This document shows, piece after piece, positions 25,557 to 59,240 of a stretch of DNA of 64,000 nt (the stretch's first letter is position 1; each line of letters starts with the position of its first letter). A program made the translations under genes and the position numbers. Source of the DNA: a virus. The notes below the pieces were generated by a model. That model was not told where the DNA came from. It made no database searches and saw only the letters and a list, made by a program, of their open reading frames with translations. The stretch covers positions 16,706 to 80,705 of the IMG/VR virus record IMGVR_UViG_3300025853_008930. One strand, written 5' to 3'.

Positions 25557-25973
25557 TCATCTCGGACTATGTGTGTAAATATCTCCATCTTTGTGCATGA
25601 ATATTTTACCTTCTTTTTCTAATTTCTTCAAGGCCGCTTTAATCTCGGTTTCCTTTCCAAATTGTTTTAGGTTTTTCATTCCTAATGCTCCGCCCTCTTT
25701 CTTAATTTCTCTTAAGATTTGACGCTCTAATTTTGCTGTCTTCATTCTAGGACTAATGTTCATAAAGTCTGTCATTTCTTCGGGGTCTTTACCAAAAATA
25801 GATTTCTTAACCTTTCTTCGTTTAAGTTCATCAAAATCTGCACCTGTTATTTTTCCTTTCGGTTTAGCCACATCTAATTTTTTTTGCCCACCATAAAGCA
25901 TCTTTTCATCTTCTTTATGAGTTCCACAATGGGCTTTCTCATCTTCTGTTTTTAGTATGTCTTTCCAACTCAT
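25557..25973 (-). CDS. Tagged protein with winged-helix-like C-terminus
   Basis: 138 residues. Tag M-S-W-K-D-I-L-K. Residues 85-135 resemble a winged helix (R-Q-I-L-R-E-I-K-K ... L-K-K-L-E-K-E-G-K-I). Shares the I-S-P-R-M phrase with the Cys-rich neighbour at 25148. DNA binding is plausible; function unknown. Confidence 0.6.
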   Translation of the reverse strand: MSWKDILKTEDEKAHCGTHKEDEKMLYGGQKKLDVAKPKGKITGADFDELKRRKVKKSIFGKDPEEMTDFMNISPRMKTAKLERQILREIKKEGGALGMKNLKQFGKETEIKAALKKLEKEGKIFMHKDGDIYTHSPR

Positions 25974-35535: not shown

Positions 35536-35976
35536 CTAATATGAGCCTTGCCAATCAATGTCTCCTCTATACTCGAATTGGTTTTTATCTTTTTGATTTT
35601 TCATATCAATGTAAACTGTAACACTCGAAACATTAAAACTAGGGCTTTCGTATGAGTCGGGCATATGATTATCTAATTTATCTGCATCAAACTCTACATC
35701 ATATTCAGTTTCGTCTTGCTCAAATGTATCTGTCTCTACAACATAATTAAAGTTTAGACGGACTTTACTCGCATAAGACCCAACACCCTTTACTCCCCAA
35801 CTTCTAAGTTCAACATCAAATCTTCCGTCTACATATCCAGTTGCATTGTCAATGTATGAGTCATTTTTTTCTTCGGGAGCATTTTCTAAAAAAACACTTA
35901 GCATTCTGCCATCTATTTCCCAAGTAATGTCTGCCATTTTTTTAATATCTTCTTTTACTATATCTTTCCAACTCAT
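35536..35976 (-). CDS. Tagged beta-rich protein (M-S-W-K-D-I-V-K)
   Basis: 146 residues. Tag, then alternating hydrophobic/charged beta strands (F-D-V-E-L-R-S-W, V-R-L-N-F-N-Y-V-V) rich in Asp and Ser. Unknown function. It overlaps the zinc-finger gene upstream by 4 bases. Confidence 0.65.
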   Translation of the reverse strand: MSWKDIVKEDIKKMADITWEIDGRMLSVFLENAPEEKNDSYIDNATGYVDGRFDVELRSWGVKGVGSYASKVRLNFNYVVETDTFEQDETEYDVEFDADKLDNHMPDSYESPSFNVSSVTVYIDMKNQKDKNQFEYRGDIDWQGSY

Positions 35977-39310: not shown

Positions 39311-39760
39311 TTAACTCTCCATCGCATTCTTATCTTGGAAACCCCTACTAAATCCCTGCTCAAAGTCTATTCGCTTAACTTCTTTAACCGCACTAGTAGT
39401 AGGGTCGTCTTTTATTTCTTTAAATCTCATAATAGCCAAATCTACAAAAGATTCTATTCCTTCGGGAGTCAATCGCATTATAGTATCATTTTTTGGACTG
39501 TTGCCCCCGAAAAGGTCTACTGTTACAAAGGGCGTATCATCTTCCCCTGTGTCAATAAAAGCAATTTCATATGCCTTATATGAATGAGGGTCTTGTAATT
39601 TGCCGTGAGGAATTGACCCTAATCTATCTCCTGCTACCACGCTTAATTCTAAATCGGGTGCAATTTCAGTTCTTGAGTGATAGCCTCTCCTGTCATTATA
39701 CGGCTTAAACTCAATATCTTGGAATCTAAATTGTTTCTTAAGAATATCTTGCCAAGTCAT
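39311..39760 (-). CDS. Tagged beta-rich protein (M-T-W-Q-D-I-L-K-K)
   Basis: 149 residues. After the tag comes a beta-rich body (E-L-S-V-V-A-G-D-R-L-G, F-I-D-T-G-E-D-D, F-V-T-V-D-L-F-G-G-N). It may be an enzyme-like or jelly-roll fold but no motif was recognised. Four-base overlap with the next tagged gene. Confidence 0.6.
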   Translation of the reverse strand: MTWQDILKKQFRFQDIEFKPYNDRRGYHSRTEIAPDLELSVVAGDRLGSIPHGKLQDPHSYKAYEIAFIDTGEDDTPFVTVDLFGGNSPKNDTIMRLTPEGIESFVDLAIMRFKEIKDDPTTSAVKEVKRIDFEQGFSRGFQDKNAMES

Positions 39761-40113
39761 TTCTTACCCACCTGTCTGCCTTCTCCTGAAAATGGATTAT
39801 ATGGAATATTTCTCGCTTTTCTTCTAGCCCTCATAGGCATTGAGTTAGTTTTATTACCTGCCATTCCAAACCCTACCTTTTTTCCTTTTCTTTGCTTAGT
39901 TTTACCCTTTGGTTGTGGTTGTCCAAAACTAGGTGAATCTGTTACATTACCAAACTCTTCTTCTAGTTCTTGCATTTCTGCATCTCTAACCTTTTTAGAA
40001 CTTCGTCGTTCAACCCCAAGTTTCTTTTTTTGACGGTCATCTATTTTCCTTTCTATTGCTCTCAACCTACCTTCGGTAAAATATGGCTTTTTTAGTATAT
40101 CTTGCCAAGTCAT
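39757..40113 (-). CDS. Tagged very basic protein (M-T-W-Q-D-I-L-K-K)
   Basis: 118 residues. After the tag comes a Lys/Arg-rich chain with a Gly/Pro segment (Q-P-K-G-K-T-K-Q-R-K-G-K-K) and a basic end. Basic composition suggests DNA condensation or virion packing. It overlaps the tiny gene at 40110 by ATGA. Confidence 0.6.
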   Translation of the reverse strand: MTWQDILKKPYFTEGRLRAIERKIDDRQKKKLGVERRSSKKVRDAEMQELEEEFGNVTDSPSFGQPQPKGKTKQRKGKKVGFGMAGNKTNSMPMRARRKARNIPYNPFSGEGRQVGKK

Positions 40114-40758: not shown

Positions 40759-41136
40759 CTAGGATTTTTTTCTACCGGCTTCTTTCATTTCATCACGATA
40801 TTCAAATAGAGTTTCCTGTATTGCTTTTTCTATTGCTTGTGTTATTTTATAAAAGCGATTATTAGGGAATGAAAAACCCACAACAGGGTAGGCTTCAAAC
40901 TTGTCTGCAAAATAAAGATAGGATTTATGTAATATCTCTCGTATATTTGCATAATCTAAATAATCAACCCCATCAACTATCTCAAAGGGGGTTTTTTCAT
41001 TAAGATTATAATGTTCTCTACCATCAAAAATAATACTTTTCGCCTCTTCTCGGCTCATTGAACCACCCGCCTTTCTTCTAGCATCTATGTTTTCACTATG
41101 CTCACTCGTTTTTTTAACGGTATCTTTCCAATTCAT
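40759..41136 (-). CDS. Tagged protein (M-N-W-K-D-T-V-K-K)
   Basis: 125 residues. Tag variant, then a mixed alpha/beta body (F-E-I-V-D-G-V-D-Y-L-D-Y-A). Ends in a basic K-K-S. The most upstream tagged gene of the arm. Confidence 0.6.
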   Translation of the reverse strand: MNWKDTVKKTSEHSENIDARRKAGGSMSREEAKSIIFDGREHYNLNEKTPFEIVDGVDYLDYANIREILHKSYLYFADKFEAYPVVGFSFPNNRFYKITQAIEKAIQETLFEYRDEMKEAGRKKS

Positions 41137-53220: not shown

Positions 53221-53421
53221 ATGGTAAAAGTAAGAATATTGAACGAAACAGGACATACGGAACTTCAACTAGAAGTTCAAGAGGTTATTGAGCAAATTGA
53301 CACACACCCTACACATTGGGTTTTCGTTGATGGTGAAATGGTTAGCCGTGAATCTATCAATGAAATCAATTGGGATGCAGTAGACAGCGTTGATTTGACC
53401 CCTGCTATCGTAGGCGGCTGA
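53221..53421 (+). CDS. Small protein, unknown
   Basis: 66 residues from ATG 53221 (AAAGGAG spaced correctly; the ATG at 53212 is too close). Beta-alpha-beta-like, with W-V-F-V-D-G-E-M-V. Possibly ubiquitin-like/beta-grasp in size, ends A-I-V-G-G, but I cannot establish the fold. Confidence 0.5.
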   Translation: MVKVRILNETGHTELQLEVQEVIEQIDTHPTHWVFVDGEMVSRESINEINWDAVDSVDLTPAIVGG

Positions 53422-53851: not shown

Positions 53852-53990
53852 TAGCCATAGAGCGTATAAGAAAAGAATTGCTACTAGATGCCGTGTATGC
53901 GGTGGGCAACTATTATTGCCCGAAGAAATTAAATTAGAAAGGCACAAGAAATGTGTGCCGAAATCAGATTCAAAAATATATATGATGTGA
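53823..53990 (+). CDS. Small zinc-finger protein
   Basis: 55 residues, overlaps the previous gene's end. C-R-V-C-G-G...H-K-K-C (about 27-47) is a C2HC zinc site. Basic. Could act in transcription or translation control. Confidence 0.5.
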   Translation: MKEQDPNYVSSHRAYKKRIATRCRVCGGQLLLPEEIKLERHKKCVPKSDSKIYMM

Positions 53991-53995
53991 TAAGA

Positions 53996-55162
53996 ATGAA
54001 GAAAATAGAAATTGAAATAAGAAAGCCGGATGATGGAGCCAATTATTATACGACTTATGTAAAGTCCGACCTGCTACGCTACAGTAGAAATAAAACTGTA
54101 AACCCTGATAGGTCAGCAAAAGACCCTTTACATGGAGCGTTAAAGACTATGTTCAAAAACATACTAAAACAACCTAGAACGAATAGATGGGGTTACACTA
54201 ACAAACTAAACTATTTTGGTGAAGGTGATTTTAGTGGAGTATTTTGGATAAAAGAATGTCCAATTGCCCTATCAAGAACCAATGGTAAATTTAGAATAAA
54301 TGGTAAAGCAGAAAGTATGGAAACTATCGCCAATGCTTTTGCTAGAGTTGCATTCAAATCTTGCTTTAGTGATGATAATTCTCAACTAATGCAGACCTTA
54401 TTTACTTCTCTAAGTCTTAGTGAAGATATTAAATATGTATTAGAAAATAGAGTTCCTTATCATTACTTTAGAGATTTTGAAAAGCAAGAAGTTAGACTTA
54501 ATGTTGCTCAAATAGGTGACAAGGAGTTTGCTATTGAAATTGGTGATGGGGTGTGGGGTAATATCTCAATGAAAGATTTACAGTCATTTTGTAACTACTA
54601 TATTCATGGTAAGAAGAATAGTAAGTTTAGAAGAATGGGCCTAAAAAGACTATACGAAGCACTAGTCGGTAGAGAACCACTAGACTCGGACATTAAAGTT
54701 ATGAGGGAGTTTCTAGCACAAAACAGAACCGAAGACCTTATTGAGAATAGAGCCAAAGAACTGTTAAGAGACATCACTAAACAATATCCTAATAGAATTA
54801 AACTAATAGAAGATGAAAACAACGAACCGGAAACAATGTATATTGCAGGTAATGAATACGATTGGAAACTATCTAATAGCAAATACAAGAGCGACATACA
54901 AATGGTATCTACTTTTGTTAGACAGAAGCGAGATATTATTGTTGATGATGAAACCACTAAAGAAGAGTGGTATTGGAGTGGGCCAATATGTATAGATAAT
55001 ATGGCTAGAGGTTCTTCACTAGGCGACCAATTCGCAACTAGGGCATTTGCTCTACTTAATGATAATATGACAGTAGCAAGAGTTAGCACAATTAAAGGCT
55101 ACTTAAAATACAAACCAAATGAAAATGAAAGAGTGGATATAAATGAAATGCATGGAGTGTAA
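53996..55162 (+). CDS. Unknown protein upstream of TFB
   Basis: 388 residues from ATG 53996. Mixed alpha/beta. Basic N-terminal part (Y-S-R-N-K-T, K-T-M-F-K-N-I-L-K) and an acidic middle. Ends inside the TFB gene start (20-base overlap), suggesting coupled expression. No motif recognised. Confidence 0.55.
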   Translation: MKKIEIEIRKPDDGANYYTTYVKSDLLRYSRNKTVNPDRSAKDPLHGALKTMFKNILKQPRTNRWGYTNKLNYFGEGDFSGVFWIKECPIALSRTNGKFRINGKAESMETIANAFARVAFKSCFSDDNSQLMQTLFTSLSLSEDIKYVLENRVPYHYFRDFEKQEVRLNVAQIGDKEFAIEIGDGVWGNISMKDLQSFCNYYIHGKKNSKFRRMGLKRLYEALVGREPLDSDIKVMREFLAQNRTEDLIENRAKELLRDITKQYPNRIKLIEDENNEPETMYIAGNEYDWKLSNSKYKSDIQMVSTFVRQKRDIIVDDETTKEEWYWSGPICIDNMARGSSLGDQFATRAFALLNDNMTVARVSTIKGYLKYKPNENERVDINEMHGV

Positions 55163-55979
55163 TGGAACACAATTTGAAATGGATGAAAGAATGGGCGAAC
55201 TATCTTGTATAGATTGCGGCTACATAGCAGTAACAGAACTGTTTGAACAAACAACCTTGCCTGTTAATAAAGATGGTGAGTTTATTCATTCTGCTGATAA
55301 GTTATTGGGGTCAAGAACAAACCACAACGAAAAGGCGTGGCTTAGAAATTCTAATCACCATTTAGAGAAAGGGCTTAGAATGTGCAATATGTTATTGGCT
55401 ACATTGATGCCTAATCATCCATTAAAGGATAGAGTAGAAGAGTGTTATATCTCTCTTTATAGAAGTAACACTCTTACTACTTTAGGTGTTGAAGAAAAGG
55501 CAACTGCTGTTGTATATTATGTTCTAAGAGAAAACAGAACACCTGTATCTCTTAAAGAGTTAAGGCAAGAGTTTTCTTGTAATACTAGAACATTAAATCA
55601 AGCAATAAAAAGAATCAACAAGCATTTCAATAATGTAAATGCCTATACTAAGATTGACCCGCATTATATGTTAAAGACGGTTACAAGTAAAATTACTGAT
55701 GACTTAACATTTGCATCTAAATGTCAAGATGTGTTAGAATTATTTGAGCCTCTAACACAAAATGTAGATTGTGTAAAAGGCACAGTATATTATTCTAGTA
55801 TTTGTTGGATTGCCAAGAATATTTACTTGCATCCAATAAAACAGAAAGAGATTGCAGAAAAGGCTAATGTGTCTTTATCTTCAATTAAACTAACCACAAA
55901 GAAACTGTTGGCTTTGATTGGTTATGAAAAATGCTCTCAAGTGAGAGGTAAACAGATAAATGAATTAAGGAGAAATTAA
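55143..55979 (+). CDS. Transcription initiation factor TFB (TFIIB family)
   Basis: 278 residues. N-terminal zinc ribbon C-M-E-C...C-I-D-C (about 3-27), a linker with D-K-L-L-G-S-R-T like the TFB B-finger/linker, then two cyclin-like repeats (about 75-160 and 175-265) with V-E-E-K-A-T-A-V-V-Y and Q-K-E-I-A-E-K-A-N-V-S. A virus-borne TFB would direct host RNA polymerase to viral promoters, possibly those of the cassette array. Strong evidence for an archaeal host. Confidence 0.85.
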   Translation: MKCMECNGTQFEMDERMGELSCIDCGYIAVTELFEQTTLPVNKDGEFIHSADKLLGSRTNHNEKAWLRNSNHHLEKGLRMCNMLLATLMPNHPLKDRVEECYISLYRSNTLTTLGVEEKATAVVYYVLRENRTPVSLKELRQEFSCNTRTLNQAIKRINKHFNNVNAYTKIDPHYMLKTVTSKITDDLTFASKCQDVLELFEPLTQNVDCVKGTVYYSSICWIAKNIYLHPIKQKEIAEKANVSLSSIKLTTKKLLALIGYEKCSQVRGKQINELRRN

Positions 55980-56183: not shown

Positions 56184-56396
56184 ATGAAGGATGAATTACA
56201 ATATCCAACATTAGCAATACAGTTAGTAAATCCACAGGGCATGCCTTATGATATGCCGGATGATTGGATGGAAACCGTTATTTCTATTGCGGCTATGATT
56301 AATGCCAAGTATAAGATTGGCGTTGATACAGTCTATGGAACAGCATCAAGAGAAGGATTTGAGATATTAAGTGAAGAATGTGGACAGGTGGAATAA
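56184..56396 (+). CDS. Small protein before the E1-like gene
   Basis: 70 residues. One beta strand then a long helix (W-M-E-T-V-I-S-I-A-A-M-I-N). Ends E-E-C-G-Q-V-E. It lacks a C-terminal Gly-Gly, so it is not an obvious ubiquitin-like substrate of the next genes. Overlap with the E1-like frame is minimal. Confidence 0.45.
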   Translation: MKDELQYPTLAIQLVNPQGMPYDMPDDWMETVISIAAMINAKYKIGVDTVYGTASREGFEILSEECGQVE

Positions 56397-56398
56397 AA

Positions 56399-56962
56399 AT
56401 GAAAAGAAAAATATTAGTAATTGGAGCAGGTGGAATAGGAAGTTATCTTATTTCATTTTTGAATAACTTAGACTTGTATGAGATACAAGTGAATGACGAT
56501 GATAAAGTAGAGACAAAGAATCTAACATATCAAAACTTCAATAGTGGCGATGTTGGTTTCCATAAAGTCAATAGAATGAAGAATAAGTTTGGAGATACTG
56601 TAAAGGTAGCAAGCCCCTATCCTATCTTAACACCCAATCAACTTGAAGGATTTGACCTAGTAGTTTGTTGTGTAGATAACTTAGGCACTAGAAGAATGCT
56701 TTACAATTCAAATGTAAAGTGGCTAGACCTGCGTTCTCAAGGTAGAAATGCGGCCTATGTTTCTTATCAAGCAGACCCATCAATGTATGATAGTTTGCTA
56801 GCAGGTAAGGAAGGTTCGTTTAGTTGTCAAGGAGAATCATGGGATGGTTCTCAAGAAGGAATACATTTCATGCACATGGCTATTGCAGGTATGGGCGCAC
56901 AATGGATTCAAAGATGGTTTAATGGTGAAAGTGTAAACTCTTTTGCCGTAGTAAATGTATGA
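56399..56962 (+). CDS. E1-like (ThiF/MoeB family) adenylating protein
   Basis: 187 residues from ATG 56399. Rossmann ATP site I-G-A-G-G-I-G-S (6-13), D-D-D-K-V-E...N-L-T-Y-Q-N (acidic plus Asn/Gln of the adenylation site), V-D-N-L-G-T-R-R, and a short C-terminal part. It is smaller than ThiF/MoeB (about 250 aa), with one Cys near S-F-S-C-Q-G. Predicted to adenylate the C-terminus of a small partner. It lies next to a JAMM gene. Confidence 0.8.
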   Translation: MKRKILVIGAGGIGSYLISFLNNLDLYEIQVNDDDKVETKNLTYQNFNSGDVGFHKVNRMKNKFGDTVKVASPYPILTPNQLEGFDLVVCCVDNLGTRRMLYNSNVKWLDLRSQGRNAAYVSYQADPSMYDSLLAGKEGSFSCQGESWDGSQEGIHFMHMAIAGMGAQWIQRWFNGESVNSFAVVNV

Positions 56963-56971
56963 GGTGATAAA

Positions 56972-57520
56972 ATGGTAGATATAGAAATAGAAAAATTAGA
57001 AGATGCTAGAGTTAGAGCAGAACAACACATACTGAATGTGTGGGCTGAAGAAGGTATGTTAGAGTTAAATGCTATTGGTGTTGATTGGAATAATAAACAT
57101 AAAGTAGATATGACTTCATATAAAGATAAAAGATTCTTTAATGCTATTTGGCATGCTTCCACAGAAATACTACCTGCCTTAGAAGTGCAAGTGGTTATTG
57201 ATGGTAAGAATGATTGTTATGTTACAACTGGTTCATCCGGCTATGTTGAGTTTGGTATGCAACCTCCTGTTGGTATGAGTTTACCGATTAAGTGTTGGAT
57301 TCACACTCACCCATTCGGTGCGGCTTATTTTAGTGGTGTTGATTGGGGAACAGTAAATGTATGGAAGTCATTAATGCACGAAGCCTATGTATTGGGCGGT
57401 GTAGAACACTATGGTTATTGGCATAATTCAAAGCCGGACTTATTAATGATTAGATACTTGGATGAAAATGGATTAGAGACTTTTAGAGGTCAAGTGCAGA
57501 ATAGAGGTGAAGAAGAATGA
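56972..57520 (+). CDS. JAMM (MPN+) metalloprotease-like protein
   Basis: 182 residues. W-I-H-T-H-P-F-G-A-A-Y-F-S-G-V-D fits H-x-H-P-x6-S-x2-D exactly, the zinc and catalytic site of JAMM deubiquitinases. An upstream Glu around E-I-L-P-A-L-E could be the general acid/base. N-terminal helical extension of 50 residues. Follows the E1-like gene by 10 bases. Likely cleaves an isopeptide or peptide bond in a ubiquitin-like system. Confidence 0.75.
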   Translation: MVDIEIEKLEDARVRAEQHILNVWAEEGMLELNAIGVDWNNKHKVDMTSYKDKRFFNAIWHASTEILPALEVQVVIDGKNDCYVTTGSSGYVEFGMQPPVGMSLPIKCWIHTHPFGAAYFSGVDWGTVNVWKSLMHEAYVLGGVEHYGYWHNSKPDLLMIRYLDENGLETFRGQVQNRGEEE

Positions 57521-57729
57521 AAGCAGTAGGAAAATGGGTATTAGTAGAAAAAGTAAATGAAAAGAGTGGGGCAATCATATCTAAAGTAGATAACAAAGGC
57601 GTAGTTGTAGACTGTCGCTGTGATAAAAACTTGAGAGATAAGATTGTCTACTTTAATGAAAGAAAAGATTATGTTAAAGTGAACGACTTTATTGCAGTTC
57701 ACTATGATGATATATTGGCGGTGGAATAA
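57517..57729 (+). CDS. GroES-like co-chaperonin (short)
   Basis: 70 residues. V-L-V-E-K-V...S-G-A-I-I, then K-G-V-V-V-D, D-K-I-V-Y-F-N and D-I-L-A-V-E at the end, the GroES strand pattern (compare ...D-I-L-A-V). Shorter than GroES (about 95), with no standard mobile loop. Overlaps the JAMM stop and abuts the GroEL ATG, so the pair is co-expressed. The lid function is inferred. Confidence 0.7.
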   Translation: MKAVGKWVLVEKVNEKSGAIISKVDNKGVVVDCRCDKNLRDKIVYFNERKDYVKVNDFIAVHYDDILAVE

Positions 57730-59240
57730 TGATAATACATGGCAATGAAGTAAAAGAAAAGTTATTACAAGGAATAGACATAGTAGCGAATACAGTAAAG
57801 CCCACACTTGGGCCACAAGCGAGAACAGTAATATTACAAGGTAATCCTCCGGTAGTAATTAACGACGGAGTTACAATTACTAGGTATATTAGTCACGAAG
57901 ACCCTTATGTTCAAATGGGCATTCAGTTAGTGCAGAATCTAGCAAGTAAAGCACAAGAAGGTAGTGGTGATGGAACTACCACCGCTTGTATTCTTGCTCA
58001 AGCACTATGTCATAATATGTTAGATGCACCGGAAATGAATGTTCATCAGTTTAATAGTTTGATTAATACTTTGAAAGAAAAGACAACCTTTCATTTAGAC
58101 CAAGCATCGGAAGAAGTCGAGGATATAGATATACTTGGAGTAGCAACCATAGCGGCAAACAACGATAACAAACTAGGTATGTTAATTGCTGATGCAATAA
58201 ACAAAGTTGGCCGTGATGGTATTATTACTGTGGAAGAATCTAAAACACACAATACTGATATTGTTGTTAGGGAAGGTTTAGAGATTGATGAAGGCTACAT
58301 GAGTCACCTTATGGCTAATAGCGAGGATGGTAAATGCACATTCAGCAACCCACTAATCTTCTTATCTAATTTAGCGATTAGAAACTTTAGTGAGATACTA
58401 CCTATGATGGAACATGCGGCAAATAACAAACAACCTCTAGTTATATTCTGTAAAGGGATGGATGGTAATGCTATGAATAATGTAGTTATGAATCTATTAC
58501 AGAAGACAATAGAAATTGCTGTAGTTACCGCACCTAACTTTGGTGATGCTCAATTAGATGAGTTAGCCGATATTGCAGGTGTTGTTGGTGGAACTCTTTA
58601 CACAGATGAAAGCAAAGATGACCCTAAAGAATTACATGCACATACTTTCGGAACTTGTGATAGTATTACTATTACTAAAGATAAAACAATTTTTGTGGGG
58701 GGTAACAGACCACTAACAGAAAATAGAATAGCGACACTAAAAGGAACTTATGAAGATAGTCAAGACGAATATGATAAACTTAGACTTAAGAAAAGAATAG
58801 CAAGACTTAGTGGTGGCGTTGCTACCATTAGAGTTGGTGCTTCTTCATCTATTGAAATGAGAGAAAAGAAAGAAAGGTTAGACGATGCTCTTAACGCTAC
58901 AAAGGCCGCACTAGAAGAAGGTATTATTGTTGGTGGTGGATTAACTCTAGCGAGAGCCGCCAAACAAGCAACAAAGACAATGAAGAATGCTAAGTGGTTT
59001 GAGTTAGCCATGCAAGAACCTATCAAAGTATTACAAAGAAATAGTGGTATAAATACACCAACTGTTAATTTTGGTAAAAAGAACATAGGTTTCAATGCAC
59101 TTACAGGTAAGACCCAAGACTTGAAAGCGGCAGGTATTTTCGACCCTGTTAAAGTTACTAAAAATAGTTTCTTAGCGGCTATGTCTATCGCACAACTTTT
59201 CTACTCTACTGATGTAGCGGTTTTGTTACCGGAGGAATAG
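57729..59240 (+). CDS. Group I (GroEL/Hsp60-type) chaperonin
   Basis: 503 residues. P-T-L-G-P near the N-terminus, G-S-G-D-G-T-T-T-A (about 77-85, ATP/Mg binding), R-I-A-R-L-S-G-G-V-A-T-I-R-V-G-A and a late G-G-G motif match GroEL rather than the archaeal thermosome. Slightly short (GroEL about 548). No Gly-Gly-Met tail; ends V-L-L-P-E-E. With the adjacent GroES-like protein it likely folds viral capsid or tail proteins. Group I chaperonins are uncommon in archaea and their viruses. Confidence 0.9.
   Translation: MIIHGNEVKEKLLQGIDIVANTVKPTLGPQARTVILQGNPPVVINDGVTITRYISHEDPYVQMGIQLVQNLASKAQEGSGDGTTTACILAQALCHNMLDAPEMNVHQFNSLINTLKEKTTFHLDQASEEVEDIDILGVATIAANNDNKLGMLIADAINKVGRDGIITVEESKTHNTDIVVREGLEIDEGYMSHLMANSEDGKCTFSNPLIFLSNLAIRNFSEILPMMEHAANNKQPLVIFCKGMDGNAMNNVVMNLLQKTIEIAVVTAPNFGDAQLDELADIAGVVGGTLYTDESKDDPKELHAHTFGTCDSITITKDKTIFVGGNRPLTENRIATLKGTYEDSQDEYDKLRLKKRIARLSGGVATIRVGASSSIEMREKKERLDDALNATKAALEEGIIVGGGLTLARAAKQATKTMKNAKWFELAMQEPIKVLQRNSGINTPTVNFGKKNIGFNALTGKTQDLKAAGIFDPVKVTKNSFLAAMSIAQLFYSTDVAVLLPEE

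Follow-up and report, generated by a model that had tools for sequence, protein, structure and literature searches.

Ubiquitin-like tagging is known as a tool of cells and as part of bacterial anti-phage defence, and the presence of genes for an E1-like enzyme and a JAMM protease side by side in a virus raises the question of whether a virus can own such a system, with which modifier and to what end. The locus lies in a stretch of 64 kb (hereafter the window) out of an 80.7-kb IMG/VR virus record, where a first-pass annotation had read the pair as a viral ubiquitin-like module. This proposal is supported by the beta-grasp fold of a third protein and by the co-occurrence of the pair in other records, and we regard it as probable (roughly 0.68) that the locus encodes a self-contained, magrovirus-encoded ubiquitin-like protein-modification system resembling SAMPylation, in which the conjugation step, the targets and any E2 are inferences. 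The relevant features are the following:

53221 to 53421, plus strand: ubiquitin-like protein (Ubl), 66 aa, VGG end (AlphaFold2, PDB fold matches, VGG conservation)
53413 to 53418, plus strand: G65-G66 of the Ubl
53951 to 55162, plus strand: 403-aa protein of unknown function between Ubl and TFB, with an invariant Cys347 in GPICIDN
55143 to 55979, plus strand: TFB-like transcription factor, context outside the machinery (matches below cut-off)
56399 to 56962, plus strand: minimal E1/ThiF-type activating enzyme, 187 aa (PF00899, profile matches, invariant residues)
56423 to 56440, plus strand: nucleotide loop of the E1, G9-x-GGIG
56825 to 56827, plus strand: invariant C143 of the E1 (SFSCQG), candidate thioester cysteine
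56972 to 57520, plus strand: JAMM/MPN+ metalloprotease, 182 aa (Prok-JAB in homologues, AMSH-LP/Rpn11 profile matches, invariant residues)
57182 to 57184, plus strand: upstream catalytic E71 of the JAMM
57302 to 57343, plus strand: JAMM motif H111-T-H113-P-x6-S121-xx-D124

The genes follow one another as a co-oriented block in the order Ubl, 403-aa protein, TFB-like factor, E1 and JAMM, the last two being 9 bases apart in the window. The TFB-like protein matches the TFIIB zinc ribbon (6.9e-6) and the TFIIB model PRK00423 (1.9e-6), both below cut-off.

The activating enzyme, the protease and the modifier

The adenylation motifs and the perfect HxHPx6SxxD noted at first pass in the two adjacent genes are both confirmed, by a match of the E1 to Pfam ThiF (PF00899, E=1e-15, 57.8 bits; cut-off 28.1) and by invariant catalytic residues, and the identification of the two enzymes is far beyond chance. 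In 110 distinct E1 homologues, GxGGIGS, DxD, K56, D93 and C143 vary little or not at all, and the family profile matches UBA5 (7.6e-10), Cap2 (2.2e-9), Uba4 (1.2e-8), NEDD8 E1 (1.4e-8) and MoeB (1.9e-8) in the PDB, as well as BubCD structures. Among NCBIfam models the leading match is adenyl_thiF (2e-12), followed by PRTRC_ThiF (5.2e-12); since the protein remains below the curated cut-offs of UbaA (NF047750, 39.3 bits; cut-off 450), PRTRC ThiF (45.6 bits; cut-off 144.75), MoeB and ThiF, the system is not counted as a member of any of these groups. The E1 begins directly at the Rossmann strand, without N-terminal extension, and lacks the usual zinc cysteines (CxxC). Most E1 relatives carry an (S)NLxRQ motif with Arg; here the motif is KNLxYQ (K40-N41-L-x-Y44-Q45), with Tyr in place of Arg in 110/110 homologues, a replacement given which ATP handling could differ. 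The Arg is also missing in the E1s of crAss-like phages; it varies within the family and does not strictly define it, the E1 assignment resting on PF00899. The C-terminal part contains the single invariant Cys143, whose position is only roughly comparable to that of the crossover-loop Cys of E1 enzymes.

The window JAMM itself has no Pfam match at E<=1, and Prok-JAB is matched by 35 of 45 homologues. Its residues E71, H111, H113, S121 and D124 are invariant in 98 distinct homologues, with identity down to 31%, and the family profile matches AMSH-LP/STAMBP (7.5e-5) and archaeal Rpn11 (1.7e-3) in the PDB, placing it closest to the AMSH and Rpn11 isopeptidases by sequence similarity.

No clear ubiquitin-like partner had been recognised at first pass, and the 66-aa protein at 53221 was considered a distant candidate; its lack of a beta-grasp fold was set beforehand as one of two outcomes that would refute the module. 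The candidate stands, whereas the qualification as distant does not: the protein passes this test and is a clear Ubl. AlphaFold2 (45 homologues) predicts a beta-grasp fold with pLDDT 92 and a flexible C-terminal tail, in the order beta-beta-alpha-beta-beta-helix-beta (strands 2-8 and 11-17, helix 19-28, strands 32-36, 39-41 and 56-61). The leading Foldseek matches of this model in the PDB are nearly all ubiquitin, NEDD8, ISG15, SUMO and MoaD (probability up to 1.00, best E 4e-3, TM about 0.5), modest E-values and TM scores being unsurprising for a 66-residue chain. Because a profile search against PDB sequences gave nothing useful, the identification of the protein as the ubiquitin-like partner of the module is based on its fold, its C-terminus and its linkage.

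The C-terminus is telling only when the homologues are compared, as GG near a stop is not rare by itself (4/343 reading frames). All 97 distinct complete homologues end in VGG or in VGG plus a short tail, with 0, 1, 2 or 7 further residues in 15, 20, 61 and 1 of them, respectively; in 79 aligned sequences the V-G-G columns have zero entropy, against 3.24 and 2.41 bits in the two columns that follow, and identity to the window protein is 55-83% in the aligned set. A chance end was rejected on account of this invariance in 97 homologues with variable tails. The very variable tail (82/97) is the signature of a precursor that needs trimming, the job expected of the JAMM, and the 15 others, including the window Ubl, already end at GG without such a need. 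Weak Pfam matches to PinA, the phage T4 inhibitor of Lon protease, were also seen in 14/45 Ubl homologues (best 1.4e-4). The 70-aa protein at 56184 was rejected as an alternative Ubl, having a homologue in only 6/152 loci and thus not being a regular part of the block.

Linkage, core status and the virus

The other outcome that would have spoken against a module, a pair never found together elsewhere, is not met. JAMM is present in 71/71 loci selected by E1, and Ubl in 37 of the 38 with enough upstream sequence; conversely, both E1 and JAMM occur in 73/73 loci selected by Ubl with 10 kb downstream. As a control for selection effects, records were re-chosen by terminase alone and then searched with the three profiles. 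All three genes were found in 16/16 records of at least 83.9 kb, while five records of 57-78 kb, which probably miss parts of the genome, held the full set in one case, a lone Ubl close to the contig end in another and none of the genes in the remaining three. Ubl, E1 and JAMM are core genes of this terminase-defined clade, and their linkage is no selection effect. Ubl was also found in 11 records without chaperonin gene (fetched by an E1 query) and therefore reaches beyond the GroEL-bearing clade. All three genes are under purifying selection, with median dN/dS of 0.19 (Ubl), 0.20 (E1) and 0.41 (JAMM). A scan of host genomes returned just three contigs, all from MAGs of bacteria and probably viral sequence binned in error, and the Ubl had no match in a phage collection. 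In many relatives (a 72-locus cluster), not in the window, a DNA-binding-looking protein of ~350 aa lies between E1 and JAMM (L010:8558-9622); recurrent inserts at this position were clustered and judged by eye only, and none was E2-like.

In the window, the minus-strand arm carries tailed-virus structural genes and the plus-strand arm replication and expression genes, with a change of sign in GC skew near 40 kb. The plus arm includes the TFB-like factor, GroES- and GroEL-like genes and an ATP-dependent DNA ligase. The GroES- and GroEL-like genes directly follow the JAMM (57517-59240), GroES being recognised by eye and position, without family match. PolB is absent from the record of the window, which is incomplete; a near-complete relative (G014, 96 kb; Pfam scan of 73 proteins) encodes a split PolB, ERCC4, a pyrimidine-dimer glycosylase (Pyr_excise), ligase and GroEL. 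An archaeal-histone-fold protein and a Cas4-family match were additionally noted in this relative (L339-L343). The gene set of the two matches the published content of Magrovirales (PMC10768690, PMC10160649), and the traits checked, i.e., opposite structural and replication arms, PolB, ATP ligase, ERCC4, TFB and often GroEL/ES, are met, the arms being taken from the window and split PolB, ERCC4, Pyr_excise, ligase and GroEL from the relative. By gene content, without phylogeny, we assign the record to the tailed viruses of archaea of magrovirus type; a host among the Poseidoniales is inferred from the same content and not directly shown.

Probable protein tagging and its rivals

What is observed is three proteins with recognisable folds or motifs, the precursor pattern, the strict linkage and the core status in the terminase-defined clade; adenylation, thioester formation, conjugation and deconjugation are inferred by analogy with known systems, and a role in takeover or replication, as opposed to the virion, is inferred from gene position. 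By this analogy, the Ubl would mostly be made as a precursor with 1-2 extra residues past Gly-Gly and trimmed where needed by the JAMM, exposing GG. The E1 would then adenylate the C-terminal glycine, Cys143 would probably receive the Ubl as a thioester, and the Ubl would be attached to lysines on proteins of the virus or the host, with no E2 involved, as in UbaA/SAMP, or by way of an unrecognised one. Finally, the JAMM would take the Ubl off again, and in the window virus it would be mainly a deconjugase, since the Ubl already ends at GG. Viruses with their own Ubl, activator and trimmer thus probably mark proteins during infection with a tag that they encode themselves. The position of the block in the non-structural arm (TFB, helicase, ligase) leans against a purely virion role, and its adjacency to TFB makes, purely by inference, action on transcription, replication or host proteins likelier than virion decoration. 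No E2 or E3 was recognised for the module, and no E2 is among the families listed for the near-complete relative; PADLOC returned matches solely to the E1 part of E1-E2 models, and the CBASS/Bil criteria (E2, CD-NTase or Bil partners) were not met.

The main rival, which we consider unlikely, is a sulfur carrier: a ThiS/MoaD-like Ubl adenylated by the E1 would receive a C-terminal thiocarboxylate from a sulfur donor and hand the sulfur on to a cofactor or tRNA, the part of the JAMM being limited to exposing GG, as in CysO/Mec-type pairs. Ubl-E1 pairs serve sulfur transfer too, and fold alone cannot decide between the two roles. The E1 is equally near ThiF/MoeB, as its adenyl_thiF match indicates, by eye the Ubl C-terminus, LTPAIVGG, is similar to the ends of MoaD-type proteins, a MoaD structure ranks 35 among the fold matches, weak ThiS Pfam matches occur in 3/45 Ubl homologues, and CysH is found in some magroviruses (PMC10160649). 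However, no sulfur-relay family (thiouridylase, MoaE, ThiG, rhodanese or cysteine desulfurase) is among the 25 families listed of 41 in the Pfam scan of the relative, and together with the absence of zinc cysteines from the E1 and the nearness of the JAMM to isopeptidases, this leads us to prefer tagging over sulfur transfer.

The higher dN/dS of the JAMM could alternatively reflect counter-defence, in which the viral Ubl would block or saturate a host Ubl antiviral pathway and the JAMM would mainly strip host modifiers off viral proteins. Bacterial Ubl systems do oppose phages, and JAMM deSAMPylases are numerous in Borg elements (PMC12660748). Nonetheless, stripping of host tags requires a JAMM alone, without a Ubl and E1 of its own, the strong conservation of the Ubl is unlike that of typical arms-race genes, and the module is core rather than sporadic, so that this explanation appears very unlikely. 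A divergent PRTRC-type cassette (ThiF, JAB and small proteins, known from plasmids and in a related form from crAss-like phages), serving genome maintenance rather than tagging, appears extremely unlikely despite the second-best NCBIfam match of the E1 and the Prok-JAB gene directly 5' of the ThiF gene in those phages, given a score far under the PRTRC ThiF cut-off, the lack of any PRTRC A/B/C/E/F match for JAMM, Ubl or the 403-aa protein, and a different gene order and different gene sizes.

Known systems and the 403-aa neighbour

The known relatives of the module belong to cells (SAMP/UbaA/JAMM, Caldiarchaeum ubiquitin, Bil, CBASS) or else are E1-JAB pairs of phages, which are distant. As in haloarchaeal SAMPylation (SAMP1/2, UbaA, HvJAMM1/2), where Ubl conjugation proceeds without a dedicated E2 (PMC4895103), a GG-ending beta-grasp modifier is combined with a ThiF/MoeB-type E1 and a JAMM desampylase, and no dedicated E2 is known; however, SAMPylation is cellular with scattered genes, whereas the viral E1 is minimal (187 aa) and the viral Ubl usually has a short pro-tail. 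The viral Ubl-JAMM linkage is itself unusual, because cellular archaeal Jab genes are rarely found beside Ubl genes (PMC2948915). The ubiquitin operon of Caldiarchaeum subterraneum (Ub, E1, E2, RING, Rpn11) provides a precedent for the precursor pattern in its VGG-plus-extension pro-modifier: there, pro-ubiquitin ending in VGG plus nine residues is trimmed by the co-encoded JAMM/Rpn11 protease, which also deconjugates, and is then activated (PMC5654768). In contrast, the viral module has no recognised E2, RING E3 or nine-residue pro-peptide. Bacterial Bil/Bub and type II CBASS Cap2-Cap3 likewise couple an E1 with a JAB protease acting on a C-terminal glycine, but are cellular with a fused or separate E2, while the virus encodes its Ubl as a stand-alone protein and lacks any E2 that could be recognised.

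Among mobile elements, a Prok-JAB gene with a ThiF/E1 gene immediately behind it was seen in crAss-like phages and their relatives (L350:3222-5651; L349:3601-5654), with an E1 only 28-31% identical and bearing an N-terminal extension, and a JAB protein of different architecture from the viral JAMM. The N-terminus of one protein of such a phage (L349:1526-2284) looks beta-grasp-like by eye. The neighbouring Ubl and JAB domains of lambda tail proteins I and K (PMC1779556) differ from the module in lacking an E1 and acting in tail assembly. Borg elements of Methanoperedens resemble it as archaeal mobile elements with AMSH-like JAMMs, and SAMP is present in one Borg; in the accessible part of the report (PMC12660748), however, the JAMMs are multicopy, the E1 is reported in the host and not the Borg, and no fixed Ubl-E1-JAMM block is described.

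The magrovirus literature searched contains no mention of the module; this search did not include the main magrovirus descriptions, and priority is not claimed. A widespread virus group, kin to viruses of abundant marine archaea, appears to own the whole activation-and-removal set as core genes. The module would offer a small and testable system in which to ask how protein tagging benefits viruses, and a new data point on the movement of pro-modifier, E1 and JAMM units between cells and viruses.

The 403-aa protein is a constant member of the block (matched in 143/152 loci). Its AlphaFold2 model (pLDDT 84) has no confident fold match, only two weak ones to BRCA1-A/BRISC complexes (probability <=0.09); searches of its sequence gave no PHROG, NCBIfam, Pfam E2 or significant PDB match, only weak scattered Pfam matches, and BLASTP showed no homology to the crAss neighbour. 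In hhalign against three E2 sequences, the only match spans 14 columns (probability 0.7%) but puts Cys347 in register with the E2 catalytic Cys (GPICIDN/GSICLDIL). The protein is a candidate E2-like factor or substrate, as a lead and not as evidence. That it is an unrecognised E2-like conjugating enzyme, with its invariant Cys after a beta-hairpin and before a helix, seems to us quite unlikely; if it were, these viruses would encode a complete eukaryote-like cascade of pro-modifier, E1, E2 and JAMM as core genes.

Finally, on the minus strand (9976-41136), 14 otherwise different proteins of the structural strand share an N-terminal peptide of the type M(S/T/N)W(K/Q/E)(D/N)ILKK (e.g., 25557-25973, 35536-35976, 39311-39760, 39757-40113 and 40759-41136), a pattern with one other occurrence in 19,543 aa. 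This start, which may be a capsid-targeting or packaging leader, is shared by a few proteins in two related viruses.
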